Assembly: GCA_017512805.1 (NCBI GenBank)
Contig: JAFWES010000031.1
Location: 1 to 45,280 of the forward strand
Length of the DNA: 45,280 bases
DNA from: Clostridia bacterium
GTDB lineage: Bacteria; Bacillota; Clostridia; Christensenellales; Aristaeellaceae
Reading direction: 5' to 3'
Shown here: positions 26,008-41,085 of the stretch, piece after piece
Numbering within the stretch: the first letter of the stretch is position 1
How the letters are laid out: every line of letters starts with the position of its first letter
Notes under the pieces: generated by a model
What the model was told of the DNA's origin: nothing
Seen by the model: the letters and a program-made list of their open reading frames with translations, nothing else
The model's database searches: none
Made by a program: the position numbers and the translations under genes

Positions 26008-26439
26008 ATGCAAGTAAACCGGTTTCCGCCGTCCGTTGCCGCCTTCCTCGCCGCCGGGGGCGGAGAGGATCTGCTGAAGGATGAAACGCACCCCGACCTG
26101 GCCGGCCTGGTTCGGTTTTTTCGCGGCGCCGAGCCGGCCCCGGCTCCGGATCCCCTGTCCCCCGCCCGGCTGGAATGGGCCGGGCTGCTGCTGGAGGCCA
26201 TTGAGGCCATCGATCAGCGGATTTACGAACATTACCGCGCCATGGCGGATCTGTTCCGCGGCGCTTTCCTCCTCCCCGGACGGGAATCCCTGCTGGCGGT
26301 TCCCTCCTGGGCGGCCCTGGCCGCCCGGGGCGTCCGTCTCGGGCTGCTGCCGGCGGATCTGTTCGGTGAAAACCGTCCCGCGCCCCATATCGGCGGGGTC
26401 AGTCCGACCTATTTTGAAAAAAGGGGGGCGCGTCCGTGA
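26008..26439 (+). CDS. Unknown 143-residue protein coupled to the GH28 gene
   Basis: I chose ATG 26008 because AGGAGG lies five bases upstream and the earlier in-frame ATG overlaps the promoter. The protein is cytoplasmic, with no signal or membrane segment. It reads as alternating helices: FPPSVAAFLAAGGGEDLLKD, LEWAGLLLEAIEAIDQRIYE, AALAARGVRLGLLPADLF. The tail ends GGVSPTYFEKRGARP. I do not recognise a family. Its stop overlaps the GTG of the polygalacturonase gene (GTGA), so the two are co-translated, and it is the first gene after the promoter. A role in oligogalacturonide use or as a partner of GH28 is inference from position only. Confidence 0.7.
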   Translation: MQVNRFPPSVAAFLAAGGGEDLLKDETHPDLAGLVRFFRGAEPAPAPDPLSPARLEWAGLLLEAIEAIDQRIYEHYRAMADLFRGAFLLPGRESLLAVPSWAALAARGVRLGLLPADLFGENRPAPHIGGVSPTYFEKRGARP

Positions 26440-27962
26440 AGCTGCTGTTTGCCGGGGCCCGCAGCGCGTCGGTGCTGCTGGACAAATCCGGGGATTATTT
26501 TATGCCCGCCCCCGTTACCCTGTATCTCAACGGCGAGCCCCTGGGGGAGGAGCGCCGAAGCATGGTGTCCCTCTTTGACCTGCGGCCGGAGACGGACTAT
26601 CAGCTGACCTTTGATAAGCCCGACGGAGAGCGGGCGCGCCTTTCCTTCCGGACGGAGGCGGAAAGCTATACGCTGGATGTCCGCCGCTTCGGCGCCCGGG
26701 GCGACGGGGAGGCGGACGACACGCCCGCGCTTCAGGCGGCCATCCTCTCCTGCCCTCCCGGAGGGCGGGTGCTGCTGGAGCCCGGAACCTATGTTTCCGG
26801 CCCGCTCTTTCTGAAAAGTCATATCACCCTGGAGCTCCGGAAAGGCGCCACCCTGGCCCTGTGCACCGACGAAAGCCGGTTTCCCGTTCTTCCGGGGGTG
26901 ATTTTTCCCACCGGCGAAGGGCCGGATCTGCTGCTGGGGACCCATGAGGGCAATCCGCTGGACGCCCGGGCCGCCGCCCTGACGGGGGTCGGGGTGGAAG
27001 ACGTGCGCCTCGTCGGCGAGGGCGTCATTGACGGCCGGGCCCAGGAAGCCGGCTGGTGGATCAATACAAAGGAGCGGTACGGGATCTATCGGCCCAGCCT
27101 GCTGCTGCTGGAGCGGTGCAGGAACGTCACCGTGCAGGGCCTGACCTTCCGGAACAGCCCCTTCTGGAACATCCACCCCATGTTCAGCGAGGATCTTTCC
27201 TTCCTGAATATCCTGGTGGAAGCCCCCGCCGTCAGCCCCAATACCGACGGGTTCGATCCGGAGAGCTGCCGCCGCGTCCGGCTGATGGGGGCGCTGCTCT
27301 CCGTGGGGGACGACTGTATCGCCCTGAAATCCGGGAAAATCTGGCAGGGGCGGACGCTGAAAATGCCCTGTGAGGACATCGAGATCGCGTACTGCGCCAT
27401 GCTGGACGGGCACGGCGGGGTAACCGTGGGCAGCGAAATGGCCGGCGGCATCCGCCGCGTACGGGTGCACCACTGCTGGATGCGGGGGAATGACCGGGGG
27501 CTGCGGATCAAGAGCCGCCGGGGCCGGGGAAAGCAGGCTGTGGTGGATGATATCCGCTTCGAGGATATCCGCATGGAAGGGGTCAAAATGCCCCTGGTCG
27601 TCAACTGCATGTACTTCTGCGATCCGGACGGGCACGCCCCCTTCGTTCAGAGCCGGGAGCCCCAGCCCGTGGATGAGGGGACGCCCACCATCGGGTCCAT
27701 CATCTTCAGGCGGGTCCGGGCCTCCGGGTGCCAGGCCTGCGTCGGGTACCTGCTGGGGTTGCCGGAGCGCCCGGTGGACAGCCTGCTGGTGCGCGACTGC
27801 GCCTTCTCCTTCGAAGAGAACGCCCCCGCCCTGGTGCCCGCCATGTCGGACGGGGTTCCCGCGGTTCACAACCGGGGGATTCTCGCGTATTTCATCCGGG
27901 AACTGACCGTGGAGAACGTGACCATGGACGGCATCGAGGGCCCCCAGGTCGTTCAGGAATAA
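26436..27962 (+). CDS. GH28 polygalacturonase-like hydrolase (cytoplasmic)
   Basis: GTG start overlapping the previous stop. The 508-residue protein has an N-terminal fibronectin-like stretch to about residue 80, then the right-handed beta-helix of glycoside hydrolase family 28, starting VRRFGARGDGEADDTPALQ. The four active-site blocks are intact: NTDGFD near 269, GDDC near 291, GHGG near 326 and RIKS near 357. These include the three catalytic aspartates. No signal peptide exists, so it should act inside the cell on imported oligogalacturonides, probably as an exo-enzyme, alongside KduI, KduD and GH105. Rhamnogalacturonan-derived substrates are also possible. Confidence 0.9.
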   Translation: MKLLFAGARSASVLLDKSGDYFMPAPVTLYLNGEPLGEERRSMVSLFDLRPETDYQLTFDKPDGERARLSFRTEAESYTLDVRRFGARGDGEADDTPALQAAILSCPPGGRVLLEPGTYVSGPLFLKSHITLELRKGATLALCTDESRFPVLPGVIFPTGEGPDLLLGTHEGNPLDARAAALTGVGVEDVRLVGEGVIDGRAQEAGWWINTKERYGIYRPSLLLLERCRNVTVQGLTFRNSPFWNIHPMFSEDLSFLNILVEAPAVSPNTDGFDPESCRRVRLMGALLSVGDDCIALKSGKIWQGRTLKMPCEDIEIAYCAMLDGHGGVTVGSEMAGGIRRVRVHHCWMRGNDRGLRIKSRRGRGKQAVVDDIRFEDIRMEGVKMPLVVNCMYFCDPDGHAPFVQSREPQPVDEGTPTIGSIIFRRVRASGCQACVGYLLGLPERPVDSLLVRDCAFSFEENAPALVPAMSDGVPAVHNRGILAYFIRELTVENVTMDGIEGPQVVQE

Positions 27963-28004: not shown

Positions 28005-28847
28005 ATGGACATTCGGTATTCCTGCAATCAGCGCGATTTCAAGCGCTACACCACCGAGGAAACCCGTAAGGAGTTCCTGATCGAGACCCTGTTCGCGGCG
28101 GATCAGGTCATGGCGACCTACAGCCATGTGGACCGGATGGTCACCCTGGGGATCATGCCTGTCTGTGAAGAGGTTTCCATCGACAAAGGCATCGATATCT
28201 GGAAGAATTTCGGAACGGAGTACTTCCTGGAGCGCCGGGAGTGCGGAATGTTCAACGTAGGCGGCCCTGGGCGGGTCCGCGCCGACGAAAACGAATACGC
28301 CCTGAACTATAAGGACTGCCTGTACCTGACCCGGGGCGCGAAAACCGTCACCTTCCGGAGCGATGACCCGAAGAACCCCGCGAAGTTCTATCTGGTGTCC
28401 GCCCCCGCCCACTGCAGCTATGAAAACAGGCTGATCCGGATCGAGGACGCGGCCAAGAAGCCCCTGGGCGCGCTGGAAACCAGCAACAAGCGGACCATCA
28501 ATCAGTTCATCCATCCCTCCGTGCTGAAGACCTGCCAGCTGTCCATGGGCATGACCGTGCTGGAGCCCGGCTCCGTCTGGAACACCATGCCCGCCCACAC
28601 CCACGAGCGCCGCATGGAAGTGTACTTCTATTTTGAGGTGCCGGAAAACAACGTGGTGTTCCACATGATGGGCGAAGGCCAGGAGACCCGGCACATCGTC
28701 ATGCAGAACGAGCAGGCCGTCATCTCCCCCTCCTGGTCCATTCACGCCGGCGCCGGCACCAGCAATTATACCTTCATCTGGGCCATGGGCGGCGAGAACC
28801 AGGCCTTCGACGACATGGACGAAATTCCCACCACCGAATTGAGATAA
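28005..28847 (+). CDS. kduI: 5-dehydro-4-deoxy-D-glucuronate isomerase
   Basis: Converts 5-keto-4-deoxyuronate, the product of unsaturated galacturonide breakdown, into 3-deoxy-D-glycero-2,5-hexodiulosonate. The 280-residue length is exact for the family. The zinc-binding cupin motif is HTHERRMEVYFYF near 199-211 (two His and a Glu), with the fourth ligand in SIHAG near 247. The N-terminus (RYSCNQRDFKRYTTEETRKE) is also typical. AAAGGAGAGG precedes the ATG. It lies between GH28 and kduD in the classical pectin order. Confidence 0.96.
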   Translation: MDIRYSCNQRDFKRYTTEETRKEFLIETLFAADQVMATYSHVDRMVTLGIMPVCEEVSIDKGIDIWKNFGTEYFLERRECGMFNVGGPGRVRADENEYALNYKDCLYLTRGAKTVTFRSDDPKNPAKFYLVSAPAHCSYENRLIRIEDAAKKPLGALETSNKRTINQFIHPSVLKTCQLSMGMTVLEPGSVWNTMPAHTHERRMEVYFYFEVPENNVVFHMMGEGQETRHIVMQNEQAVISPSWSIHAGAGTSNYTFIWAMGGENQAFDDMDEIPTTELR

Positions 28848-28938: not shown

Positions 28939-29736
28939 ATGACCATGAAAGATTTCTCCCTGGAAGGCAAAATCGCCTGGATCACCGGCGCCTCCTACGG
29001 CATCGGGTTCGCCATCGCCCAGGCCTACGCTGCCGCCGGCGCCACCATCGTCTTTAACGACCGGGGCCAGGAGCAGCTGGAGCGGGGCCTGGCCAGCTAT
29101 GAAGCCGCCGGCATCAAGGCCTACGGCTATGTATGCGACGTGACGGATGAGGAAGCCGTCCAGGCGACCGTGCGGAAGATCGAGGAAGATGTGGGCACCG
29201 TGGACATCCTGGTCAACAACGCCGGCATCATCAAGCGCATCCCCATGATCGAAATGAGCGCGGCGGACTTCCGCGCGGTGGTGGATGTGGATCTGAACGC
29301 CCCCTTCATCGTCTCCAAAGCCGTCATTCCCGGCATGATCCGGAAGGGCCACGGAAAGATCATCAACATCTGTTCCATGATGAGCGAGCTGGGCCGGGAA
29401 ACCGTCTCCGCCTACGCTGCGGCCAAGGGCGGGCTGAAGATGCTGACCCGGAACATCTGCGCCGAATACGGCGAAGCCAACATTCAGTGCAACGGCATTG
29501 GCCCGGGCTATATCGCCACGCCTCAGACCGCGCCCCTGCGGGAACGGCAGCCCGACGGCAGCCGTCATCCCTTTGATCAGTTTATCGTCGCCAAGACGCC
29601 GGCGGCCCGCTGGGGCACCCCTGAGGATCTGCAGGGGCCCGCGGTCTTCCTGGCTTCCGACGCTTCCAATTTCGTCAACGGCCATATCCTGTATGTGGAC
29701 GGGGGCATTCTGGCCTATATCGGCAAGCAGCCCTGA
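28939..29736 (+). CDS. kduD: 2-dehydro-3-deoxy-D-gluconate 5-dehydrogenase (SDR)
   Basis: A 265-residue short-chain dehydrogenase reducing the KduI product to 2-keto-3-deoxygluconate with NAD(P)H. It has TGASYGIGFAIA at 15-26 for cofactor binding, NNAG near 93, the catalytic tyrosine and lysine in SAYAAAKGG near 156-164, and the KduD-like LEGKIAWITGA and GPGYIATPQTAPLR. GGAAGG precedes the ATG at 28939. The 91-bp gap after kduI shows no terminator. The KDG kinase and aldolase that finish the pathway are not in this window. Confidence 0.93.
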   Translation: MTMKDFSLEGKIAWITGASYGIGFAIAQAYAAAGATIVFNDRGQEQLERGLASYEAAGIKAYGYVCDVTDEEAVQATVRKIEEDVGTVDILVNNAGIIKRIPMIEMSAADFRAVVDVDLNAPFIVSKAVIPGMIRKGHGKIINICSMMSELGRETVSAYAAAKGGLKMLTRNICAEYGEANIQCNGIGPGYIATPQTAPLRERQPDGSRHPFDQFIVAKTPAARWGTPEDLQGPAVFLASDASNFVNGHILYVDGGILAYIGKQP

Positions 29737-29941: not shown

Positions 29942-31084
29942 ATGGTTTTGCCCAGCAAGGACATTTATGACAAACTGGATCAGTACGTGACCCGGCTGAT
30001 TCGCGAATCCTCCCCGGAGCGCACCGTGTGGAACGTGGAGAAGCTCCGCCAGGGCGCGCCCGCCAGCTGGAACTATATCGACGGCTGCATGATGACCGCC
30101 CTGCTTTCCCTCTGGGAGATCACCGGGGAGCAGCGGTATTTCGATTTCGTGGAATCCTTTATCGGCGCCTTCGTTTCGGAGGACGGCAGCATCCGCACCT
30201 TTGATCCGGGCAAGCATACCCTGGACGATATCAACGAGGGCCGGGCGCTCTTCGACCTGTATAACGTCACGGGGAAGGAAAAGTACCGCAAGGCGGCGGA
30301 AGTCCTGCGGGCGGCCCTGGACGATCAGCCCCGGACGGCGGAAGGCTCCTGGTGGCATAAGGACATCTATCCCAACCAGGTCTGGCTGGACGGCATTTAC
30401 ATGGCGCAGCCCTTCGCCGCCCTGTACGAAAAGCATTTCGGCCGGGGGGATTACAGTGACGTGCTCCGGCAGGTCGCCACCGTCCGGGCGCATATGCGGG
30501 ATCCCGGGACCGGCCTTTACTATCACGGCTATGACGCCTCCCGCAAAGCCTTCTGGGCGGACCCGGAGACCGGGCTGAGCCGGAGCTTCTGGCTGCGGGC
30601 CATCGGGTGGTTCGCGGTGGCGCTGGCGGATCTGTGCGACATCCTGCCGGAGGCGGACGCCGCTCCCCTGCGGGATGTCTTTGCCGATCTGATGCGGGAT
30701 ATCCGCCCCTTCGCCGATCCGGATTCCGGGATGTATAACCAGGTGGTGGACCGGGCGGACGCGGAAGGCAACTATCCGGAAACCTCCGGTTCCTCCATGG
30801 TGGCCTATGCCATGCTCAAGGGGGCGCGCCTGGGCATCCTGGACGCTTCCTTCCGGGATCAGGGGCTGAAAACCTTTGAGGGCATCGTCGAGAAAAACCT
30901 GTCCTTCTCCGGCGAGGAGCTGAACCTGAACAGCATCTGCCTGGTAGCCGGGCTGGGGCCGGAAAACAACCGCCGCCGGGACGGGTCGCTGGCCTACTAT
31001 CTGTCCGAGCCCGTGGTGCAGAACGACGCCAAGGGCGTGGCTCCCCTGCTGCTGTGCTATACGGAGGTCCGGCGGCTTTCGTAA
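29942..31084 (+). CDS. GH105 unsaturated (rhamno)galacturonyl hydrolase
   Basis: The 380-residue (alpha/alpha)6-barrel enzyme removes the unsaturated uronate from the non-reducing end of pectin-lyase products. Family landmarks are WNYIDGCMMTAL near 41-52 and KDIYPNQVWLDGIYMAQPF near 140-158, where the WLDG aspartate is the conserved catalytic residue of YteR/YesR-type enzymes. Later blocks are SRSFWLRAIGWF near 215 and ETSGSSMVAYAMLKG near 280. No signal peptide, so it is cytoplasmic and works on imported disaccharides. Its product spontaneously gives the KduI substrate. GGAAAGGA precedes the ATG at 29942. Confidence 0.93.
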   Translation: MVLPSKDIYDKLDQYVTRLIRESSPERTVWNVEKLRQGAPASWNYIDGCMMTALLSLWEITGEQRYFDFVESFIGAFVSEDGSIRTFDPGKHTLDDINEGRALFDLYNVTGKEKYRKAAEVLRAALDDQPRTAEGSWWHKDIYPNQVWLDGIYMAQPFAALYEKHFGRGDYSDVLRQVATVRAHMRDPGTGLYYHGYDASRKAFWADPETGLSRSFWLRAIGWFAVALADLCDILPEADAAPLRDVFADLMRDIRPFADPDSGMYNQVVDRADAEGNYPETSGSSMVAYAMLKGARLGILDASFRDQGLKTFEGIVEKNLSFSGEELNLNSICLVAGLGPENNRRRDGSLAYYLSEPVVQNDAKGVAPLLLCYTEVRRLS

Positions 31085-31794: not shown

Positions 31795-32846
31795 AGGCCG
31801 TAGCAAAGGACTTTTTGCTCTATGACGAGGAAACCGGGCTGTATCGGGAGGATCCGGAACAGGCCGTCCGCGACGATGTGGAGAAGCATTACTGGCTCCA
31901 TGTCGGCCGGACGATCGCCAAAGACTGGCGGCTCTACCTGATGCTGGTGCCCATGCTGCTGGTTTTCCTCTTCTGGCGGTACTTCCCCATGTACGAGCTG
32001 CTGGGCTGCTTCAAGGTGCCGGATAACACGATTCCGGTCAGCCAGCAGATGTTCACCGGCTTCAGCTATTTCCGGCGGCTGCTGGTGGGGGGCGACAGCC
32101 TTTCAAGCAGCTTCTGGATGGCCATGCGGAACACCTTCCTGCTGAGCTTCTACGGGCTCTGCTTCGGGTTCCCCATGCCCATTCTGCTGGCGCTGTTCTT
32201 CAATGAAGTCCGCTCCAACGTGGCTCGCAGCGCCCTTCAGGTCATGACCTATCTGCCGAAGTTCATGTCCACCGTCGTCATGACCTCTCTGGTCATGATG
32301 CTGGTCAAGCAGGGCTCCTCCATTTCCCAGATGGGTATCGTCAGCCAGCTGCTGGTCAAGATGGGCCTCATCTCCCAGGAAGTGGGCAACGCCGGCTTGC
32401 TGAACAATCCGGGCTTCTTCCGCGCCATCTATCAGATCTCCGGCATCTGGGAAGGCGCGGGCTATGACAGCATCGTTTTCTTCGCCGCCATCATCGCCAT
32501 CTCCCCCACCAGCTACGAGGCCGCCCAGATCGACGGCGCCAACAAGTGGGCCCAGATGCGCTACGTCGTGCTGCCCAGCATGCTGTCCACCATCGTCATC
32601 ATGCTGATTACCCGGATCGGCTCCCTGCTGAACATCGGATACGAAAAGGTCCTGTTGCTGTATAACACCAACACCTACGTGACCGCCGACGTCATTTCCA
32701 CCCTGGCCTACCGGACCGGGCTGGCCGGCGGGGCCGGCACGGGCGTCGCCTCCGCGGCGGAAATGATGAACAACGTGGTCGGCATGCTGCTGGTCATCGG
32801 CGCCAATACCATCGCCCGCAAGGCCAGCAACACGTCGCTGTACTGA
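31791..32846 (+). CDS. Carbohydrate ABC transporter permease (LplB/YtePQ-like)
   Basis: The 351-residue MalF-type permease has an unusual charged N-terminal extension of ~48 residues (AKDFLLYDEETGLYRED...DDVEKHYW), then six membrane helices starting at about 49. The ATPase-contacting EAA loop reads EAAQIDGANKWAQMRYVVLP near 242-261. With the next gene it forms the heterodimeric channel of a type I importer of the family that takes up complex oligosaccharides such as pectin fragments. Directly downstream of pectin-degrading genes, oligogalacturonide uptake is likely (inference). Confidence 0.92.
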   Translation: MKAVAKDFLLYDEETGLYREDPEQAVRDDVEKHYWLHVGRTIAKDWRLYLMLVPMLLVFLFWRYFPMYELLGCFKVPDNTIPVSQQMFTGFSYFRRLLVGGDSLSSSFWMAMRNTFLLSFYGLCFGFPMPILLALFFNEVRSNVARSALQVMTYLPKFMSTVVMTSLVMMLVKQGSSISQMGIVSQLLVKMGLISQEVGNAGLLNNPGFFRAIYQISGIWEGAGYDSIVFFAAIIAISPTSYEAAQIDGANKWAQMRYVVLPSMLSTIVIMLITRIGSLLNIGYEKVLLLYNTNTYVTADVISTLAYRTGLAGGAGTGVASAAEMMNNVVGMLLVIGANTIARKASNTSLY

Positions 32847-32862
32847 GAGGAGGAGCATACGG

Positions 32863-33753
32863 ATGAAAAGAAAACTGGAAGTCTCCGAACTCATCTTCAA
32901 AATCATCAGCTATGTGCTGCTGACGGTGTTTGCCCTGCTTTGTCTCTATCCCTTCGTGTACGCCATCTCCGCCTCCGTTTCCGGCCGGCATGTGGTGGAG
33001 TATAACGAGGTGGTGCTCTTCCCCAAGGCGGTCCAGTTCGACGCCTTCGCCTCCATGTTCCGGAACAACATGTTCTGGAACTCCTACAGCAACACCCTGT
33101 TTGTCACCCTGTACGGTACCCTTTGGGCCATGGGCGTTTCCATCTTGGGCGCCTACGCGCTGTCCAAGAAGCGCCTGCTGTTCCGGAAAACCTTTAATTT
33201 CTTCCTGGTGTTCACCATGTGGTTCTCCGCCGGCATCGTGCCCCAGTACCTGAATTACCTGGCGACCCAGAACGTGTTCCGGGCGGTGGGCATCATGGAC
33301 GACAAGTGGCTGGTGGTCATCGCCATGGGTATGGCGGCCATGAACATCATCCTCCTGCGCAACGCCTTCGAGGGCGTCCCCTCCGAAATCGAGGAAGCCG
33401 CCATCGTGGACGGGGCCAGCGAGTTCCAGGTGCTGAGCAAGGTCTTCATCCCCATGTCCAAATCCACCATCGCCACGGTGGCCCTGTTCTTCGCCATCTC
33501 CCGCTGGAACGGATACTTCTGGGCCCGGCGGATGATCTCCAATCAGTATGAGCATCCCCTGCAGGTCTTCATCCGGCTGCAGCCGGAGATGTATACCGAC
33601 CCGGACCAGATGACCGGCTGGAGCGCCAACTACGCCTCCGACAGCGCCATCTACGCCCTGATCGTCTGCTCCATCATCCCGATCCTGATCATCTATCCCT
33701 TTATCCAGAAGTACTTCGCCAAGGGCACCAACGCCGGCGGCGTGAAGGAATAA
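32863..33753 (+). CDS. Carbohydrate ABC transporter permease (LplC/YtcP-like)
   Basis: The 296-residue MalG-type permease has six membrane helices and the EAA loop IEEAAIVDGASEFQVLSKVF near 182-201. It is the partner of the preceding permease, 16 bp apart, with GAGAGGAGG upstream of the ATG. N-terminal YPFVYAISASVSG and the C-terminal PFIQKYFAKGTNAGGVKE are typical of this permease group. Confidence 0.94.
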   Translation: MKRKLEVSELIFKIISYVLLTVFALLCLYPFVYAISASVSGRHVVEYNEVVLFPKAVQFDAFASMFRNNMFWNSYSNTLFVTLYGTLWAMGVSILGAYALSKKRLLFRKTFNFFLVFTMWFSAGIVPQYLNYLATQNVFRAVGIMDDKWLVVIAMGMAAMNIILLRNAFEGVPSEIEEAAIVDGASEFQVLSKVFIPMSKSTIATVALFFAISRWNGYFWARRMISNQYEHPLQVFIRLQPEMYTDPDQMTGWSANYASDSAIYALIVCSIIPILIIYPFIQKYFAKGTNAGGVKE

Positions 33754-33807: not shown

Positions 33808-35877
33808 ATGAAGAAAATCCTGTCTCTGATGATGGCGCTGGCTATGCTTCTGTCCATGGTCAGCATCGCTTCCGCTGAAGATCTGCTTCCCGTCGCGGAA
33901 GGGACCGTGCTGCGGATGGCGGTGGGTTACAACAATGCCAAGACCGGCCTGCGCTTCGATCCTGAAGTGGCCGGCGAAGGCATCACCCTGGCCGACGGCA
34001 AGACCTATCATTCCGGCGAATTCAAGCCCACCTGGGTGGCGGTTCAGGAGCTCCTGGGCTTCACCATCGAGGATCTGTATCAGGGCAATGGCGCTTCCGC
34101 CGAATTCGATGTGTGGAAGGAAAAGCTGGATCAGGTGGACATGCTCTCCGGTACCGCGGCGAAGCTGAGCGAGAACGGCGAAGCCGGCCTGCTGGTGAAC
34201 ATCGGCGATTATCTGGACCGGATGCCCAACTTCAAGGCCTATCTGGATTCCAACCCCATCGTCCGGCTGTCCATCACCGGTAACGTGGATACCGGCGCCA
34301 TCTACTTCTCCCCCTATTTCGACGGCGTGGACGACATCGAAAAGATGCCCCTCATGCGGGTCGACTGGGTGGAAAAGCTGCTCAACGGCGAAGGCGAGTT
34401 CACGGCGGATGCCTGCAACACCCTGAAGGCCCCCGTGTACACCCCCTACATGCCCACCTCCGGCAAGGTGGAAATCGACGTGGTCACCCTGGACGGCACC
34501 GCGGTCGAGACCATCGCCAAGGACTATGACGCCGCCGGCAACATCGTCGCCAAGATGAACGAAGCGGGCGAAATCGACGGTGTGGCCGCGGTCAACATGC
34601 TGCGGACCTACATCGACCAGGCGTACAACGGCTATTACGGCACCGAACGGGCCAACCTGTTCATGGGCCAGAACGCTGCCTGGGACGCGGACGAGCTGGT
34701 CGCCCTGCTGCGCTGCGTGGTGGCCAATCCCCAGACCCTGAACGACACCGACAAGGTGCAGGGCCTCTTCTCCCGTGAGGAGAACAACACCTCCCGCCGG
34801 GCGGATATGTTCCGCTTCGCCGGCACCCTGTTCGGCGTCCGCGGCCTGGAGTCACGTCAGGATTACCTGTATGTGGGCACCGACGGCCTGCTGCATGACG
34901 CCCGTCAGGAAGTGGCCACCTACGAAGCCCTGGGCCGGCTGAACGCCCTGGCGCAGGAAGGCCTCCTGTCCGAAGACTTCCTGTCCGGTTCCGATATGAA
35001 GACCGAGAAGTACCTGGAGAACGATTCCGGCTTCATGCATTATGACTACAACCAGACCCAGACCATCTACAATGCCACCAAGCTGGACAGCGCGGCCGGC
35101 GAAAAGTACATGGCGGTCATGGTTCCCGTGGCCCGCTGGTATGACGGCACGAACGAGGAAGGCGTCTACATGCGGTTTACCGAGTCCTGGCGTTCCGTGA
35201 AGACGGACGGCTGGGGCATCTCCAAGGCCGGCGTGGGCGACGATGTGAACAAGCTGAACGCGGCCCTGAAGCTGATCGACTACGCGTATTCTCCTGAAGG
35301 CACCATCATGATGAGCTACGGCCCCGAAGCGTTCCGCAAGGCGGGCGAAACCTTCATGTTCAACGGCAAGGAAATGCCCGTCATCGCGGACGCCACCTAC
35401 GCTGAACTGTGGGAGAAGGCCAACGGCAACTACACCAACTACGCCCGTCAGTTCCTGGGCTCCACCCTGTCCTTCATGAAGAGCCAGGCTTTCGAGTATC
35501 AGTGCACCCATGAAGTCGGCAAGGAAGGCGCCGGCAAGATCTCCACGGCCATCGGACTGGGCACCATCAAGCACCCCCTGCTGGCGGTGAACGAAGAGAA
35601 CATGTGGTACACCTCCGTGCCCACCGTGCTGCCCACCACCAAGGAAGACAACCAGCTGCTGGGCACCTTCACGGATCTGACCGAGAAGTTCGCCACCAGC
35701 AAGGACGGCCAGAACGCCCTGGTGGATATCATCGTGAACGGCTTCACCCTGGAAGGCATGTCCTCCCCCGAAGCGGCCGCAGCCACCGTGGCGGATACCA
35801 TGATGGGCGTCCAGTATCTGGATGTGAAGAACCTGGCCTGGCAGGATCTGCTGGACTACTTCACTGCCCTGAACTGA
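33808..35877 (+). CDS. Extracellular solute-binding protein of the carbohydrate ABC importer
   Basis: The ATG at 33808 follows AAGGAGG and starts a signal peptide, MKKILSLMMALAMLLSMVSI, with a likely signal-peptidase I cut after ASA near residue 24. The 689-residue product is larger than usual LplA-type binding proteins (about 500-560) but has their pattern, including WVAVQELLGFTIEDLYQG near 64, MPLMRVDWVEKLLNGEG near 180 and GWGISKAGVGDDVNKLNAA near 470. There is no lipobox cysteine, which is odd for a Gram-positive binding protein: it would be released rather than lipid-anchored, unless held by partners. Codon use is highly biased, suggesting strong expression. Confidence 0.9.
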   Translation: MKKILSLMMALAMLLSMVSIASAEDLLPVAEGTVLRMAVGYNNAKTGLRFDPEVAGEGITLADGKTYHSGEFKPTWVAVQELLGFTIEDLYQGNGASAEFDVWKEKLDQVDMLSGTAAKLSENGEAGLLVNIGDYLDRMPNFKAYLDSNPIVRLSITGNVDTGAIYFSPYFDGVDDIEKMPLMRVDWVEKLLNGEGEFTADACNTLKAPVYTPYMPTSGKVEIDVVTLDGTAVETIAKDYDAAGNIVAKMNEAGEIDGVAAVNMLRTYIDQAYNGYYGTERANLFMGQNAAWDADELVALLRCVVANPQTLNDTDKVQGLFSREENNTSRRADMFRFAGTLFGVRGLESRQDYLYVGTDGLLHDARQEVATYEALGRLNALAQEGLLSEDFLSGSDMKTEKYLENDSGFMHYDYNQTQTIYNATKLDSAAGEKYMAVMVPVARWYDGTNEEGVYMRFTESWRSVKTDGWGISKAGVGDDVNKLNAALKLIDYAYSPEGTIMMSYGPEAFRKAGETFMFNGKEMPVIADATYAELWEKANGNYTNYARQFLGSTLSFMKSQAFEYQCTHEVGKEGAGKISTAIGLGTIKHPLLAVNEENMWYTSVPTVLPTTKEDNQLLGTFTDLTEKFATSKDGQNALVDIIVNGFTLEGMSSPEAAAATVADTMMGVQYLDVKNLAWQDLLDYFTALN

Positions 35878-36002: not shown

Positions 36003-36581
36003 ATGTATAAGAAGCAAATGACCCTGCAAAGATACCTTTGCCTGGCACTGTTGATCATCAGCGCGGTGGTATTCATCTACTCATTAGGGATCATGACAGA
36101 CCTCTATGATTCGCTCTATGGCACTTTCCGCCGGGGCAAGACCAGCATCACCGGCGCCGAGGTCTATATGGACATGCAGGGCTTTAACCGGTCCTTCCTG
36201 CTCTATGCCATCGGGATGATTCTCCTGAGCGTCCTGCTCTTTATCACCAATACCCATTCCCGCCGCCGGTACTATATCGGCAATTACTGCGCCGTGGGGA
36301 TTTTCTCCGTGGCCAGTGTCGCCCTGAGCGTCTGGGCGCATACCCAGATCGAAGGGTTCAAGGCTCAGTTCCTGTCCATCGATTTTGAAGCGCTCCTGCA
36401 GCATGCCACCTCCCGGAAAACCCTGTACACGGAGTCGACCTTCTGGTTCGATATCCACTATCTGGTATTCGGGCTGCTGCTGCTGGGCACGGTGCTTCTG
36501 ATCGCGAACACCATTTGGAAACGCAAGCTCATGAATGAAGAACACGCGCTGATCGGCCATGGGAAGGAGGCTGTCGCATGA
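36003..36581 (+). CDS. Small four-helix membrane protein A1 (unknown, module 1)
   Basis: The 192-residue protein has about four membrane helices: LALLIISAVVFIYSLGIM (13-30), FLLYAIGMILLSVLLFIT (62-79), GIFSVASVALSVWAH (96-110) and YLVFGLLLLGTVLLIANTIW (150-170). A ~40-residue loop precedes helix 4. GGAGG precedes the ATG at 36003, and the gene is coupled to the next by an ATGA overlap. It resembles the 38153-38692 product in layout and in short matches (FIYSLGIM/IIYSLRLT after helix 1, YTEST/ITESV before helix 4), so the two seem to be paralogues. I recognise no family. Being placed with a MalK-type ATPase suggests it is an extra membrane subunit of the importer (inference). Confidence 0.75.
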   Translation: MYKKQMTLQRYLCLALLIISAVVFIYSLGIMTDLYDSLYGTFRRGKTSITGAEVYMDMQGFNRSFLLYAIGMILLSVLLFITNTHSRRRYYIGNYCAVGIFSVASVALSVWAHTQIEGFKAQFLSIDFEALLQHATSRKTLYTESTFWFDIHYLVFGLLLLGTVLLIANTIWKRKLMNEEHALIGHGKEAVA

Positions 36582-37075
36582 GTGACGTAAACGATCGCGA
36601 GACCAATCTGGATCGCATGCGCTATGTGAAGAACACTGCTTCTTCCCGGCTCTGCTATCTGGCCATTCTGCTGGATGTTCTGTATTTCGTTTCAATTTAT
36701 AAATCCGATGTGGGATCCTGGTACTATCAGATCCTCATCGGGGCTTCCATCGTCTATAATCTGCTGTTCCTGCTGATGGCCTTCCTGGCCTCCGAAGGGG
36801 TCAAGAGCTATCAGAAGAATTACTCCTGGCTGCTCTACGGGCTGGGGATCGGCCAGATCATCCGCATCTTTATCCTGCCCGCCCAGGCCCACAGCGCCCT
36901 GGTGCAGGTGGGCGGCACGGACGTCCTCGCCATGGGCGGCGGCCAGTATATCCGGGTGGTGATCTACCTCCTGGGCAGCGCGGCCTGCCTGATCGGCGCG
37001 GCCCTGATCAACCAGCGGAAATGCACCCTGCTGGAGGGTCATATGAAATCCCTGGAAGCAAAGGGGGCGGCATAA
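36578..37075 (+). CDS. Small four-helix membrane protein B1 (unknown, module 1)
   Basis: The 165-residue protein has a charged cytoplasmic N-terminus (DVNDRETNLDRMRYVKNT) and four hydrophobic segments: SRLCYLAILLDVLYFVSIY, IGASIVYNLLFLLMAFLA, WLLYGLGIGQIIRIFILP and VVIYLLGSAACLIGAALI. The tail is cytoplasmic and basic (NQRKCTLLEGHMKSLEAKG). It overlaps gene A1 by four bases, and the ATPase gene starts one base after its stop. No family is recognised. The equivalent position in the second module is taken by the 226-residue product at 38689, which also has a charged N-terminus followed by four helices. I infer an accessory membrane component working with A1 and the ATPase. Confidence 0.75.
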   Translation: MSDVNDRETNLDRMRYVKNTASSRLCYLAILLDVLYFVSIYKSDVGSWYYQILIGASIVYNLLFLLMAFLASEGVKSYQKNYSWLLYGLGIGQIIRIFILPAQAHSALVQVGGTDVLAMGGGQYIRVVIYLLGSAACLIGAALINQRKCTLLEGHMKSLEAKGAA

Positions 37076-37076
37076 G

Positions 37077-38138
37077 ATGGCGCAGCTGAATCTGAAACAT
37101 ATCGACAAGATTTATGATAACAACGTTCAGGCGGTTTTTGACTTCAACCTGGATGTGAAGGACGGGGAACTGATCGTCCTGGTGGGCCCCTCCGGCTGCG
37201 GCAAGTCCACCACCCTGCGGATGGTGGCCGGCCTGGAGGATATCTCCCGGGGACAGCTGCTGCTGGACGGGAAGGACATCACCCAGACCCCCGCCAAGGA
37301 TCGGGATATGGCCATGGTGTTCCAGAACTATGCCCTGTACGGCCATATGACCATCTATGAAAACATGGCCTTCTCGCTGACCCTGCGGAAGGAAAACCCC
37401 AACGTCATCCACAAGAAGGTGCTGGCGGCCGCGGAAATCCTGGGCCTGACCTCCCAGCTGAACAAAAAGCCTTCCCAGCTTTCCGGCGGTCAGCGTCAGC
37501 GGGTGGCCATGGGCCGGTCCATTGTGCGCAACCCCAAGGTCTTCCTGTTTGACGAACCCCTGTCCAACCTGGACGCCAAGCTGCGCGGCGCCACCCGGCG
37601 GGAAATTCTGCTGCTGCATAAGCGCCTGCAGGCGACCATGCTCTACGTGACCCATGACCAGACGGAAGCCCTGACCCTGGCGGATCGGATCGTCTGCATG
37701 TCCATGGGGCATGTACAGCAGGTGGGCACCCCGCTGGAGCTCTACGATCAGCCCAACAACCTCTTCGTGGCCGGGTTTATCGGCCTGCCCCCCATGAATA
37801 CCTGGAAGGTGACCGTCCGGGAAGGCTATCTGGAGGGTCCCGGATTCAAGTGCCCGCTGAGCGAAAAAGAGCGGGGGATCCTGGCGGGGCACGCCGGGCG
37901 GGAAATCGTCCTGGGCGTCCGGCCGGAAAACATTGCCCTGGGCAGCGACGTCAGCCTGAAGGTGACCGATAACGAAAACCTGGGAATGAACACCCTGGTC
38001 TACGGCCACATGGGAGACGCCCAGCGCATCTCCGCCAAGCTGAAGGGCTGGATGGAATACAAAGCCGGCGATGACGTGTCCGTCGCCTTCGTCCGCAAGC
38101 ACTTCTTCGACGCGGAAACCACGAACGCCATTCGCTAA
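37077..38138 (+). CDS. ABC transporter ATPase, UgpC/MsmX/MalK type (module 1)
   Basis: The 353-residue ATPase has Walker A GPSGCGKSTT near 34-43, the Q-loop in VFQNYALYGHMT, the signature LSGGQRQRV near 136, Walker B VFLFDEPLSN near 156 with the D-loop NLDAKL, and the H-loop VTHDQTEA near 192. A C-terminal regulatory TOBE-like domain (from ~235, RPENIALG) marks it as a sugar-importer ATPase. The order small membrane protein, small membrane protein, ATPase recurs downstream. It could energise the LplB/LplC-like permeases together with, or instead of, the second ATPase. Confidence 0.93.
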   Translation: MAQLNLKHIDKIYDNNVQAVFDFNLDVKDGELIVLVGPSGCGKSTTLRMVAGLEDISRGQLLLDGKDITQTPAKDRDMAMVFQNYALYGHMTIYENMAFSLTLRKENPNVIHKKVLAAAEILGLTSQLNKKPSQLSGGQRQRVAMGRSIVRNPKVFLFDEPLSNLDAKLRGATRREILLLHKRLQATMLYVTHDQTEALTLADRIVCMSMGHVQQVGTPLELYDQPNNLFVAGFIGLPPMNTWKVTVREGYLEGPGFKCPLSEKERGILAGHAGREIVLGVRPENIALGSDVSLKVTDNENLGMNTLVYGHMGDAQRISAKLKGWMEYKAGDDVSVAFVRKHFFDAETTNAIR

Positions 38139-38152
38139 GGAGGGGACTGAAT

Positions 38153-38692
38153 ATGAAGGAAAAGCTCCGGAAGTTTCTGGTTTCCCTGAAACGGAAGCCC
38201 CATATGATTCCCCTGGTGGTGCTGGGCATCGCGTTTATTATCTATTCCCTGCGTCTGACGGTGATCTCCAATACCACCGCCCGGATCCAGGGCCCCAATA
38301 TGGGCCTGTGCGGCTTCGTCACCATGCTCTTCTCCATGCTGGGCATGGTCTCCTTCGGCCGCTCCTTCCCCCATCGGAAGCCCGTCAATAAGGTTATGCT
38401 CTGCCTGACCTTCCTGCTGATGGCTGCGGTGATTTTCGCGGATACCCAATATATCGCCGCGGTCACCAACGCCATCACCCGTGAAGTCGATCCCATCGAG
38501 GTCACGGCTTCCACGTCCTATATCACGGAGTCCGTCTCCATGCTCAAGCTGCATATCGGCGTTGTGATTGCCGGCCTGGCGCTGACCGCCCTGCTGCCGG
38601 TTTACAGCCCCCTGATCAAGAAGATCAACACCAATATCGCCGTGGCGGAGAACAAGGATATGGGCGCCATCGACCTGGCAGGAGACGCATGA
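38153..38692 (+). CDS. Small four-helix membrane protein A2 (unknown, module 2)
   Basis: The 179-residue protein has about four membrane helices: MIPLVVLGIAFIIYSLRL (18-35), LCGFVTMLFSMLGMVSFG (52-69), KVMLCLTFLLMAAVIFA (81-97) and LHIGVVIAGLALTALLPVY (134-152). It also has a basic N-terminus and a basic stretch (SFPHRKPVNK) between helices 2 and 3. Layout and local matches tie it to the 36003-36581 product. GGAGGGG precedes the ATG, and its stop overlaps the next start (ATGA). No known family recognised. Probably a paralogue generated with the rest of the module. Confidence 0.75.
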   Translation: MKEKLRKFLVSLKRKPHMIPLVVLGIAFIIYSLRLTVISNTTARIQGPNMGLCGFVTMLFSMLGMVSFGRSFPHRKPVNKVMLCLTFLLMAAVIFADTQYIAAVTNAITREVDPIEVTASTSYITESVSMLKLHIGVVIAGLALTALLPVYSPLIKKINTNIAVAENKDMGAIDLAGDA

Positions 38693-39369
38693 GCCGGGAG
38701 AGGCGGAAGAAGGAGCAGCAGGAGGCTGCGGCCCGGGAGCGCGAAACCGCCGCGTCCTATTATGAGCTGAAGACGAAGGCCGTGGAGGATCTGGTCACCG
38801 CCAACGAGGAGAACTCTCCCCCCGTGTCCCGGGCGGAAATCCGGAAGTACACCTCCCGGGGCAAGCTGAAGGTGGCGGACTGGGTCAAGCTCCTGGCCAT
38901 CAAATGGTGGTTTGCCGCGGCGGTCTGCTTCTTCTTCATCTGGGGGCTGGGCACCTACTTCCCCCATACGCTGGACCTGCTGGTCATTACCGGCGTGGCC
39001 CTGGGCTTTGTGACGGACCTTCTGACCAATAACGTGCTGCGGTTCATCGCCCCCACGAAGGGTGCCAATGACCGGTGGATGATGTTTCCGAAGAAGGGCT
39101 TCATCAGCCTGCCGCTGAACCTGCTGCATGCGGGGGTGGTCCTGTTCCTGGTCTATACGGCGTATAACGCCCTGAACGTCCTGATCATCTCTGCGGGCGG
39201 GATGGAGGCCGACGCCGTCCCCCTGGGGGTGGAGCCGATCCTCTTCGGCCTGCTTTATCTGGGGTTTGACATGTTGCTGATCACCCTGAAGCACGTGGCG
39301 CAAAACATGCTTCGGGACGCTGAAAAGAAAGCGGACAGCGTCGGCGGCAAGCGGCCTGTTCGGGGTTGA
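38689..39369 (+). CDS. Small four-helix membrane protein B2 (unknown, module 2)
   Basis: The 226-residue protein begins with a strongly charged, helical cytoplasmic stretch of ~65 residues (SRERRKKEQQEAAARERETA and onward) that could form a coiled coil. Four hydrophobic segments follow: WWFAAAVCFFFIWGLGTYF, LDLLVITGVALGFVTDLL, NLLHAGVVLFLVYTAYNAL and ILFGLLYLGFDMLLITL. The tail is basic. It is coupled to A2 by a four-base overlap and followed 88 bp later by the second ATPase gene. It holds the same place as B1 in module 1. Family unknown. Confidence 0.75.
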   Translation: MSRERRKKEQQEAAARERETAASYYELKTKAVEDLVTANEENSPPVSRAEIRKYTSRGKLKVADWVKLLAIKWWFAAAVCFFFIWGLGTYFPHTLDLLVITGVALGFVTDLLTNNVLRFIAPTKGANDRWMMFPKKGFISLPLNLLHAGVVLFLVYTAYNALNVLIISAGGMEADAVPLGVEPILFGLLYLGFDMLLITLKHVAQNMLRDAEKKADSVGGKRPVRG

Positions 39370-39457
39370 GACATCTTTTGTTCGCGGTCTCTGCCGGAGA
39401 GCGCGATGACCAATCAGTCATCCGATCCGCAAAGGACGGATAGGAGGAGGAGCTTCC

Positions 39458-40534
39458 ATGGCCTATATTACGCTGCGGGATATCAACAAGATCTACCCCA
39501 ACGGATACCATGCGGTGCATAATTTCAATCTGGACATCGAAAAGGGTGAGTTCATCATCTTCGTCGGCCCCTCCGGCTGCGGGAAGTCTACCACCCTGCG
39601 GATGATCGCGGGCCTGGAGGACATCTCCAAGGGTGAGTTCCTGATCAACGGCCAGCGGGCCAACGAATGGGGCCCCCAGCAGCGGGAAATCGCCATGGTA
39701 TTCCAGTCCTACGCTCTCTATCCCCAGATGACGGTGTTCGATAACATCGCCTTCGGCCTGGAGCTGATGGGCGTCGATGAGGAAGAGATTGAAGCCCGAG
39801 TCAAGAAAACCGCGGCCATCCTGGGCCTGACGGATTATCTGGACCGGCTGCCCCGGGCCCTGTCCGGCGGCCAGCGGCAGCGTGTCGCCATCGGGCGGGC
39901 CATCATCCGGAAGGTGGGCATCTTCCTGATGGACGAGCCCCTTTCCAACCTGGACGCCAAGCAGCGCGTGACCATGCGGTCCGAGATCTCCCAGATCCAC
40001 AAGTCCACCGGGGCCACCACCATCTATGTCACCCATGACCAGACCGAGGCCATGACCCTGGCAGACCGGATCGTCGTCATGAAGGACGGATACGTCCAGC
40101 AGATCGGCACCCCCAAGGAGCTGTACTTCAATCCCGTGAACGTCTTCGTGGCCGGGTTCATCGGCGAACCTCCCATGAACTTCATCAAGGGCAAGGTCCA
40201 GGGCGGCGCCATCTCCTTCGGAGCCAACAAACTTCCTGTGGCGGATAAACTGGGCAGCAAGGCTAATTCTTATGAAGGAAAAGAGGTTGTCTTCGGCTTC
40301 CGGCCGGAAGCGATTTCCATCCAGCCCGTATCCGACGCCCTGACCCTGACGGCCCAGGTGGAGCTGACCGAAATGCTGGGTGACAACGCCAACGTTTATA
40401 TCGACGCCAACGGCCAGAAAGCGATCCTGAAGGTCACCCCCCACGAAATTCCCGCCATGGACGAAGCCCTGACCTTCTACCTCCCCACCGATCAGATCTA
40501 CCTCTTCGACGGGGAAACGGAAAAGGTTCTGTAA
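39458..40534 (+). CDS. ABC transporter ATPase, UgpC/MsmX/MalK type (module 2)
   Basis: The 358-residue ATPase has Walker A GPSGCGKSTT near 38-47, LSGGQRQRV near 134, Walker B IFLMDEPLSN near 154, VTHDQTEAM near 191 and a C-terminal TOBE-like domain with FRPEAIS near 281. AGGAGGAGG precedes the ATG. It is a paralogue of the ATPase at 37077. Sugar importers of this permease family normally share a single orphan ATPase, so two in one operon is unusual and suggests a heterodimer or two distinct complexes. The last 25 codons are repeated immediately downstream as a non-functional copy. Confidence 0.94.
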   Translation: MAYITLRDINKIYPNGYHAVHNFNLDIEKGEFIIFVGPSGCGKSTTLRMIAGLEDISKGEFLINGQRANEWGPQQREIAMVFQSYALYPQMTVFDNIAFGLELMGVDEEEIEARVKKTAAILGLTDYLDRLPRALSGGQRQRVAIGRAIIRKVGIFLMDEPLSNLDAKQRVTMRSEISQIHKSTGATTIYVTHDQTEAMTLADRIVVMKDGYVQQIGTPKELYFNPVNVFVAGFIGEPPMNFIKGKVQGGAISFGANKLPVADKLGSKANSYEGKEVVFGFRPEAISIQPVSDALTLTAQVELTEMLGDNANVYIDANGQKAILKVTPHEIPAMDEALTFYLPTDQIYLFDGETEKVL

Positions 40535-40644
40535 GCCTCTCCTCAACGAAATCCCATGAACGAGGCCCTGACCTTCTACCTCCCCACCGATCAAATTTAC
40601 CTCTTCGACGGGGAAACGGAAATGGTGTTGTAAGCCTCCCCTCC
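40445..40644 (+). repeat. Tandem duplication of the 3' end of the ATPase gene
   Basis: 40445-40544 and 40548-40644 are about 90% identical, including the coding tail EALTFYLPTDQIYLFDGETE, the stop codon and the following AAGCCTC. The second copy keeps a 25-codon frame from ATG 40557 to the stop at 40631-40633 but has no ribosome site, so it is a scar. Confidence 0.85.
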
Positions 40645-40892: not shown

Positions 40893-40978
40893 GGAGCGAT
40901 GGCCGAGCGGTTGAAGGCGCTGGTCTTGAAAACCAGTGATACCGAAAGGTACCGGGGGTTCGAATCCCTCTCGCTCCG
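40893..40978 (+). tRNA. tRNA-Ser (anticodon TGA)
   Basis: The acceptor stem GGAGCGA pairs with TCGCTCC. The anticodon loop CTTGAAA sits between CTGGT and ACCAG and shows anticodon TGA, reading UCA. The long variable arm (TACCGAAAGGTA) is typical of serine tRNAs, and GGTTCGAATCC is the T-arm. CCA is not encoded. Confidence 0.96.
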
Positions 40979-40990
40979 CTTGCCGGCTTT

Positions 40991-41078
40991 GGAGAAGTAC
41001 CCAAGTGGCCGAAGGGGCTCCCCTGCTAAGGGAGTAGTGCGGGTGACCGCAGCCCGGGTTCAAATCCCGGCTTCTCCG
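40991..41078 (+). tRNA. tRNA-Ser (anticodon GCT)
   Basis: The acceptor stem GGAGAAG pairs with CTTCTCC. The anticodon loop CTGCTAA lies between CTCCC and GGGAG, giving anticodon GCT for AGC/AGU. There is a long variable arm and GGTTCAAATCC as T-arm. It follows the first tRNA by 12 bp and is the likely integration target of the element to its right. Confidence 0.96.
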
Positions 41079-41085
41079 CTGAAAA

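Follow-up and report, generated by a model that had tools for sequence, protein, structure and literature searches.

In the general view, a type I sugar importer needs nothing beyond a binding protein, two permeases and an ATPase that is usually homodimeric. Small membrane proteins of the DUF624/YesL type, whose function is unassigned, lie beside LplB-type importers and resemble those described below in being small membrane proteins near CUT1 importers. In the alginate importer of Sphingomonas sp. A1, AlgQ2/AlgM1-AlgM2/AlgS-AlgS (PDB 4tqu and others), the excerpts of the source describe four transporter subunits, including a homodimeric ATPase, and the binding protein (PMC5717064). According to the same excerpts, the Streptobacillus GAG importer Smon0123/Smon0121-Smon0122/Smon0120-Smon0120 also has an ATPase homodimer, and was purified and found to be ATPase-active in liposomes with those subunits alone (PMC5717064). 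In B. subtilis, YtcQP-YteP with MsmX takes up polygalacturonan and rhamnogalacturonan I, as stated in the consulted part of PMC5730181. According to that of PMC11466899, its energy comes from the multitask ATPase MsmX, and the complex has been modelled as MsmX2-YtcQP-YteP.

We analysed a window of 45,280 nucleotides from a Clostridia bacterium (contig JAFWES010000031.1), in which a transport cluster follows genes for pectin enzymes. Its importer resembles the alginate system in that PermA is homologous to AlgM1 (E 1.1e-62) and the solute-binding protein (SBP) to AlgQ1 (phmmer E 5e-7 over residues 334-574, a likeness in sequence only), as well as in the presumed substrate class, acidic polysaccharides. 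It differs in having five additional membrane proteins and a second ATPase inherited alongside it. The substrate class and the plan of an SBP with two permeases also recall YtcQP-YteP, as far as the consulted part of PMC5730181 describes it; the available part of PMC11466899 names no accessory membrane proteins for YtcQP-YteP, in contrast to the window's importer. With the GAG importer the likeness lies in its uronate-containing disaccharides, which feed a cytosolic unsaturated glucuronyl hydrolase (PMC5717064, in the part consulted). The earlier note on this DNA knew of no described system with such a plan, and we found none among the matches listed in our literature searches.

The importer and its neighbouring genes

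The genes are collected in Table 1. We confirmed the coordinates of the six consecutive + strand genes A1-B1-K1-A2-B2-K2 that the earlier note had singled out, together with the stop/start overlaps of A1/B1 and A2/B2, which are 4 nt each. For SBP, the ATG at 33808 was chosen as the start. The transport cluster opens with E, whose stop overlaps the start of PermA; this gene (31204-31794), which lies ahead of PermA and is part of the conserved transport unit, had been missed before.

Table 1. Genes of the transport cluster and adjoining enzyme genes in the window
Feature	Coordinates	Strand	Remarks
GH28 polygalacturonase-type hydrolase	26436..27962	+	no evident signal peptide (by reading)
KduI-type isomerase	28005..28847	+	
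Short-chain dehydrogenase, KduD-like	28939..29736	+	name inferred from partner KduI
GH88/GH105-type unsaturated uronyl hydrolase	29942..31084	+	PF07470
E, small membrane protein, 196 aa	31204..31794	+	~4 TM by hydropathy
PermA, permease 1, EAA loop	31791..32846	+	closest solved relative AlgM1
PermB, permease 2, EAA loop	32863..33753	+	
SBP, 689-aa solute-binding protein, AlgQ1-like	33808..35877	+	signal peptide without lipobox
A1, four-helix membrane protein, 192 aa	36003..36581	+	
B1, four-helix membrane protein, 165 aa	36578..37075	+	
K1, MalK-type ATPase within the invariant operon	37077..38138	+	catalytic motifs intact
A2, four-helix membrane protein, 179 aa	38153..38692	+	conserved basic N-terminus
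B2, four-helix membrane protein, 226 aa	38689..39369	+	65-residue N-terminus predicted cytosolic
K2, second MalK-type ATPase	39458..40534	+	co-inherited with importer, position not fixed

PermA and PermB both scored above the cut-off for PF00528, and EAA motifs could be read in each of them (EAAQIDGA and EEAAIVDGA, respectively). PermA also has a conserved N-terminal extension without a match in related permeases. Judged by sequence, the core has the features of a CUT1 type I sugar importer, namely two EAA permeases, a MalK-type ATPase and a large AlgQ-like binding protein of the cluster G type.

Relationships among the small membrane proteins and the ATPases

The six genes from A1 to K2 had been read as a module present twice. 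In blastp, A1 and A2 gave a 13-residue chance match (E about 0.5) and B1 and B2 no match at E≤10, so that neither pair could be upheld as copies. Profile–profile comparison with hhalign, using 52-55 sequences per family, gave probabilities of 0.5-0.7% for A1-A2 and 0.2% for B1-B2; for comparison, the permease pair gave 95% in an earlier comparison of 31-sequence profiles. The AlphaFold2 models of A1 and A2 (mean pLDDT 90.3 and 88.9) have a common four-helix arrangement, which does not show common descent. Collectively, A1, B1, A2 and B2 appear to represent four families without kinship to one another, with remote kinship of A1 and A2 possible. The two ATPases are indeed paralogues, being 53% identical and MalK-type with OB/TOBE regions, and by these comparisons they are the sole paralogous pair among the claimed duplicates.

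The four hydrophobic helices of A1, B1, A2 and B2 were each borne out, and none of the window's E, A1, B1, A2 and B2 reached a Pfam or NCBIfam cut-off, which places them outside the known families in these databases. Reading of the alignments revealed no EAA coupling loop in any of the five. The complete match list for 42 E members held no Pfam S-component (ECF) family. PF04854 (DUF624/YesL) was absent from the complete match lists for E and B2 and from the best 25 families listed for each of A1, B1 and A2; DUF624 gave three matches above cut-off elsewhere in the window's genome. The CD20-like family PF04103 was matched at E≤0.1 by 3 of 44 A1 members; among those scored against the cut-off, the best, A1 of locus L103, fell short of it (26.8 bits against 27.9). 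The window's A1 had no match to it, nine other distant A1 homologues had none at E≤0.001, and the scan of the remaining 34 members was tallied without cut-offs. In the structural comparison of A1 with this tetraspan family, Z lay in a range that may reflect the common arrangement alone.

Within every A and B protein, conservation was higher in the predicted cytosolic loop that joins helices 2 and 3 (0.60-0.81) than in either outer loop (0.42-0.64); the cytosolic tails were unevenly conserved (0.32-0.73), and the positive-inside bias of A1 was weak (10:6). The B2 of locus L039, which ends at a contig edge, was excluded from the alignments. Conserved stretches include SEG.K.Y in the predicted cytosolic loop of B1 and DG..EDQ.HYL.R in the C-terminal tail of E. 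Median identity to the other families was 29-35% for the A, B and E proteins, 38% for SBP and 57-69% for the permeases and K1. Such faster change of A, B and E than of the permeases and K1 is unusual for core subunits.

Both K1 and K2 scored above cut-off for PF00005, PF17912 and PF08402, and the catalytic motifs were kept in 54 of 54 K1 and in 35 or 36 of 36 K2 sequences. The two differ at 20 positions that are each over 95% constant. In a midpoint-rooted tree with five other MalK proteins of the same genome (four close, one distant) K1 and K2 were placed as sisters, a relation that must be taken as provisional given the rooting and the few outside sequences. K2 orthologues were found in 12 of 13 importer-positive genomes (E≤1.3e-124, 56-74% identity) and in none of 40 importer-negative genomes (best match 6.7e-112), which had been hand-chosen from those negative for A1; the E-value line was drawn post hoc, once the gap had been seen. 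An importer-negative genome (G099) holds a match that is 56% identical over residues 1-315 (4.3e-105), so identity alone cannot separate the lowest K2 call, also at 56% (G145), which was made on its E-value and on its higher score with the K2 than with the K1 profile.

A conserved nine-gene transport unit

We found 44 loci in five families of one order, with genes of the relatives called by our own codon-usage and six-frame scripts; 11 of 33 named loci were mapped, and at least one locus (L107) has a contig as long as that of another stretch in the set (L041). The order E-PermA-PermB-SBP-A1-B1-K1-A2-B2 was complete in 42 of the 44, which ties the small membrane proteins to the importer, as had been proposed. 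Of the two exceptions, one ends at a contig edge and the other is a variant, G019. The A1 profile identified 18 of 297 genomes of the order and the B2 profile the same 18, whereas the E profile matched 17 of these and gave one weak match besides. Among 398 genomes of a phylum sample, the B2 profile found the window's own genome only. The B2 and E profiles derive from loci found via A1, so they could overlook very different homologues in other settings. Furthermore, no ORF matching E, A1, B1, A2 or B2 was present in 16 stretches around related permeases, 12 of them non-own, each from a different one of the 34 other genomes that had a permease match (in L294 no permease was labelled); importer-negative genomes of the same order lay outside this PermA/PermB comparison.

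A survey of other genomes for the A-B-ATPase triad upheld the order A1-B1-K1-A2-B2 and not a fixed place for K2. A1 and B1 overlap by exactly 4 nt in 31 of 43 loci, with start codons chosen by the analyst, and K1 follows B1 in all 44 loci; the position of K2 varies, and the notion of an ATPase fixed to each A-B pair does not hold. Among 26 loci with both B2 and K2, 21 have a GH105-type gene between the two. In ten other-family loci (f14, f18 and f19) K2 lies either 5.6-7.2 kb ahead of E or on a separate contig, with kduI adjoining it in nine; being outside the transport operon there, K2 could serve another importer too. From locus to locus the pectin enzyme genes differ in place and in which of them are present, against a constant order of the nine transport genes. 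The G019 variant has the same importer core and keeps A1, B1 and B2, with an unrecognised four-helix ORF in the place of A2, other enzymes and one ATPase at the locus, which the tree placed between K1 and K2 without support (0.24). It has no K2 orthologue and no E detectable by profile, suggesting that neither is needed in every version.

Possible roles of the small membrane proteins

The cluster may represent the transport arm of a locus for pectin utilisation, in which SBP, PermA, PermB and a MalK-type ATPase would form a CUT1 importer like AlgM1M2/AlgQ and YtcQP-YteP. From the neighbouring genes we infer oligogalacturonides as the substrate, which after import would be degraded by cytosolic GH28, GH88/105, KduI and KduD. 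E, A1, B1, A2 and B2 would be dedicated accessory subunits that pack around PermA and PermB and touch the cytosolic face (the ATPases and the permease ends), a contact suggested by the better conservation of the helix 2-3 loop relative to the outer loops; they might stabilise the complex or gate the use of ATP for long acidic oligomers. K1 would be the ATPase of the operon, partnered by the co-inherited K2, most likely as a K1-K2 heterodimer in place of the usual homodimer. In our judgement, this picture, in which a type I importer of oligogalacturonides has five dedicated accessory membrane subunits, has about an even chance of being right.

The same co-inheritance would be expected of small proteins that act as regulators or make up a separate transporter. 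It is conceivable, though unlikely, that they act as regulators or scaffolds, sensing the state of the importer or holding the pectin enzymes (GH28, GH88/105 and KduI) at the membrane for direct hand-on of oligomers. The predicted cytosolic N-terminus of B2, the conserved loop 2-3 of each A and B protein relative to the outer loops, and the apparently cytosolic location of the neighbouring enzymes are consistent with this; however, the enzyme genes vary in place and set while the nine transport genes are constant, and G019 has other enzymes yet keeps A1, B1, B2 and the ORF in the place of A2. Of the two options raised earlier, extra membrane subunits and a separate transporter, both survive and the former fits better. 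A separate machine formed by A1-B1-A2-B2 with E, such as an exporter or a second importer driven by K2 that merely sits in the pectin operon, is improbable: five membrane proteins could make a pore and K2 is a distinct co-inherited ATPase, but no EAA coupling loop was noticed in the five window proteins and none of them reaches a Pfam cut-off. Moreover, E precedes PermA at the start of the cluster, K1 directly follows B1 throughout, K2 does not adjoin the A and B genes in f14 and f19, and G019 keeps A1, B1 and B2 without a K2 orthologue.

The fast sequence change relative to the permeases and the small size of these proteins would also suit factors for assembly or quality control, which would help to insert or pair PermA and PermB before leaving the mature importer. 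We consider this quite improbable, as five such factors would be odd, the purified GAG importer showed ATPase activity in liposomes without such factors (PMC5717064), and the tight spacing with K1 suggests matched protein amounts. The idea of the earlier note that the small proteins retain or recruit a non-lipidated SBP at the cell surface is very improbable. No lipobox was seen in the SBP of any of the 32 f1 loci examined, the window's included, as that idea would have it, but one is present in all 12 loci of f10, f14, f18 and f19 (one of them, L103, being a loose match), which have the same A, B and E genes, and such lipidation alongside them makes retention unlikely. In addition, other importers of the same genome have likely unlipidated SBPs without A or B genes beside them, and the outer loops of the A and B proteins are less conserved than loop 2-3.

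If the accessory-subunit reading is taken further, the system could be a new importer class with ten obligate components, namely a permease heterodimer, a K1-K2 heterodimeric MalK pair and five encasing tetraspan-like subunits. It would have arisen in one order of gut Clostridia to import long acidic (pectic) oligosaccharides, and a reduced form in at least one genome would have been carried over to another polysaccharide, acted on by a heparinase II/III-like enzyme. We offer this broader proposal tentatively and regard it as rather doubtful in full. The described importers compared here do without five small membrane proteins and a second dedicated ATPase; the five co-inherited, unnamed membrane families and the second ATPase suggest that at least one lineage needs more than the standard set. 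The locus offers a compact, testable system for what accessory subunits add to an ABC importer, be it in substrate size and charge, coupling or gating, and it points towards five new protein families linked with pectin use by gut Clostridia.

Gene order and distribution of the importer unit

In the window, ten plus-strand genes, E through K2, formed one run downstream of the genes for GH28, KduI, a KduD-like dehydrogenase and a GH88/105-type hydrolase. The small membrane proteins A1 to B2 and the MalK-type ATPases K1 and K2 were lettered by their order in the earlier note; the label E, for a fifth small membrane protein, implies no family.

Coordinates and domain matches of the importer genes and their upstream neighbours in the window
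Gene	Position	Strand	Remark
GH28	26436-27962		upstream of transport cluster
KduI	28005-28847		upstream of transport cluster
KduD-like dehydrogenase	28939-29736		upstream of transport cluster
GH88/105-type hydrolase	29942-31084		upstream of transport cluster
E	31204-31794	+	no Pfam/NCBIfam match above cut-off
PermA	31791-32846	+	PF00528 above cut-off
PermB	32863-33753	+	PF00528 above cut-off
SBP	33808-35877	+	
A1	36003-36581	+	no Pfam/NCBIfam match above cut-off
B1	36578-37075	+	no Pfam/NCBIfam match above cut-off
K1	37077-38138	+	PF00005 plus OB and TOBE domains above cut-off
A2	38153-38692	+	no Pfam/NCBIfam match above cut-off
B2	38689-39369	+	no Pfam/NCBIfam match above cut-off
K2	39458-40534	+	PF00005 plus OB and TOBE domains above cut-off

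The unit E-PermA-PermB-SBP-A1-B1-K1-A2-B2 was complete, ordered and on a single strand in 42 of 44 loci (the window plus two sets of 30 and 13; by family, 32 from f1, one from f10, seven from f14 and two each from f18 and f19). The exceptions were L056, where a contig end cuts the unit, and L068, a variant in genome G019. A1 and B1 overlapped by exactly 4 nt in 31/43 loci. At E≤0.01, 33 of 100 relatives had an A1 match. Named relatives were MAGs deposited as Clostridia, Clostridiales, Oscillospiraceae and similar; of 33 titles, 8 referred to a herbivore gut or rumen, and 12 more carried RUG numbers, which we take to denote rumen genomes. The A1 profile matched 18 of 297 genomes of the order, the B2 profile matched the identical 18, and the E profile matched 17 of them plus one weak match, a co-occurrence among recognisable homologues, as the loci used to train the profiles of B2 and E had been located by way of A1. 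In the phylum sample, B2 was found in 1/398 genomes, namely that of the window.

Beyond the cluster, 90 nt around the K2 stop occurred a second time immediately after the gene (40455-40643; spacing 99 nt, identity 91%), making its 3′ end a small tandem duplication. Two tRNA-Ser genes (TGA and GCT) followed at 40893-41079, and the different-looking region of ORFs beyond them is possibly an integrated element.

Relationships and topology of the small membrane proteins

The earlier note had read the operon as carrying an A-B-ATPase module twice. We found that the genes are real and that the ATPases are paralogues (K1 and K2 are 53% identical), but that A1/A2 and B1/B2 could not be upheld as copies. 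Pairwise comparison gave a 13-residue chance match for A1 and A2 (E about 0.5) and nothing for B1 and B2 at E≤10. Profile–profile comparison, using 52-55 sequences per family, returned probabilities of 0.5-0.7% for A1-A2 and 0.2% for B1-B2; the top values among the ten pairs of E, A1, B1, A2 and B2 were 8.4% for A1-B1 (global) and 5.6% for B1-A2 (local), and PermA-PermB scored 95% in an earlier 31-sequence run. AlphaFold2 models of A1 (pLDDT 90.3) and A2 (pLDDT 88.9) were each a four-helix bundle, and their best structural matches had designed bundles and tetraspan proteins in common; such match levels may reflect a common arrangement and nothing more. From these pairwise, profile and structural comparisons, it seems best to regard A1, B1, A2 and B2 as four families alike in size and topology, with distant shared ancestry neither shown nor excluded. 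An A1 homologue (L103:8947-9579) scored 26.8 bits against a CD20-like Pfam family, slightly below the cut-off of 27.9, and the model of the window A1 likewise had CD20 among its structural matches.

The five small proteins evolve faster than the permeases and K1, with median identities (%) to the window in the other families of 29 (A1), 34 (B1), 35 (A2), 32 (B2) and 32 (E), against 57 (PermA), 64 (PermB) and 69 (K1); the value for SBP was 38. When an N-in topology was assumed, K+R residues inside and outside numbered 10:6 in A1, 10:0 in B1, 13:3 in A2 and 26:0 in B2. Conservation of the helix 2-3 loop was 0.81, 0.72, 0.80 and 0.60, respectively; both outer loops scored lower than this loop in each protein (0.42-0.64), and the cytosolic tails were variable (0.32-0.73). 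The charge bias and the better-conserved helix 2-3 loop modestly favour predicted contacts of A and B on the cytosolic side over contacts with SBP outside. SBP carried a lipobox in 12/12 loci of f10, f14, f18 and f19 (L103 by loose match) and in 0/32 f1 loci, all 32 of which had an SPase I-type signal (window 33808-33880). In other families the lipobox is thus present alongside A and B, which are therefore independent of anchor loss. Several likely sugar-binding proteins of other importers in the window's own genome (L070, L071, L072, L295 and L297) were without a lipobox and also without A/B; one (L073) had a lipobox.

The second ATPase

A K2 orthologue lay inside the fetched stretch in 30 of the 44 loci. 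Of the remaining 14, one is the G019 variant and three are f1 loci that lie at a contig end, part of K2 still being present in one of them. The last ten come from f14, f18 and f19; in five of these genomes K2 sits on the importer's contig, 5.6-7.2 kb upstream of E, and in the other five it is encoded on a different contig. Among 13 genomes with an A1 match tested outside the main f1 set, 12 had a K2 orthologue (E≤1.3e-124, 56-74% identity), G019 being the sole exception (best match 1.0e-110); 0/40 genomes without an A1 match had one (best match 6.7e-112, 54% identity). In 10 of the 12 fetched K2 loci, the gap between the KduI and K2 open frames was -2 to 121 nt.

K1 and K2 formed separate clades in a small tree and differed at 20 positions, each over 95% constant. 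The Walker A, Q-loop, signature, Walker B and H-loop motifs were kept in 54/54 K1 and in 35 or 36 of 36 K2 sequences. That a single heterodimeric permease pair is inherited with two ATPases, both intact and diverged from each other, suggests that K1 and K2 may pair as a heterodimer; the alternative is that K2 has a second client. For this branch of importers, excerpts of published descriptions give the ATPase of the Alg and GAG importers as a homodimer (PMC5717064), model that of YtcQP-YteP as MsmX2 (PMC11466899) and assign YtcQP-YteP a role in uptake (PMC5730181); these excerpts name no further subunits for any of the three.

Core importer, substrate and the G019 variant

Among solved structures, PermA matched AlgM1 (E 1.1e-62) and SBP matched AlgQ1 (E 5e-7); the best PermB match outside the system in the phylum sample was 38% identical (E 9.4e-57). 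Sixteen stretches around related permeases (12 from other genomes and four from the window's own; L294 without a labelled permease) contained no ORF of at least 90 residues matching the E, A1, B1, A2 or B2 profiles at E≤0.01, and their usual layouts were PermA-PermB-SBP and SBP-PermA-PermB. The N-terminal extension of PermA (window 31791-31930) was conserved, reading YDE..G.Y..PEQ.VRDD.EK in most members shown, and had no profile match in the fetched related permeases.

GH28, GH88/105, KduI and KduD adjoined the importer in most of the loci mapped, pointing to oligogalacturonides as the probable substrate. In the G019 variant (L068, 5838-12724), the locus had one ATPase only, the profiles recognised neither E nor A2, and a 137-residue four-helix ORF, very short for that position, took the place of A2. 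Downstream, a heparinase II/III-like protein (PF07940) and a DUF4962 protein stood in place of the pectin enzymes, suggesting that the architecture may serve other polymers too. We infer that the small proteins are physically associated with the importer. Collectively, the data describe a type I importer of acidic oligosaccharides that has five dedicated, unnamed membrane families; a second ATPase is inherited with it in 12 of the 13 genomes examined beyond the main f1 set.
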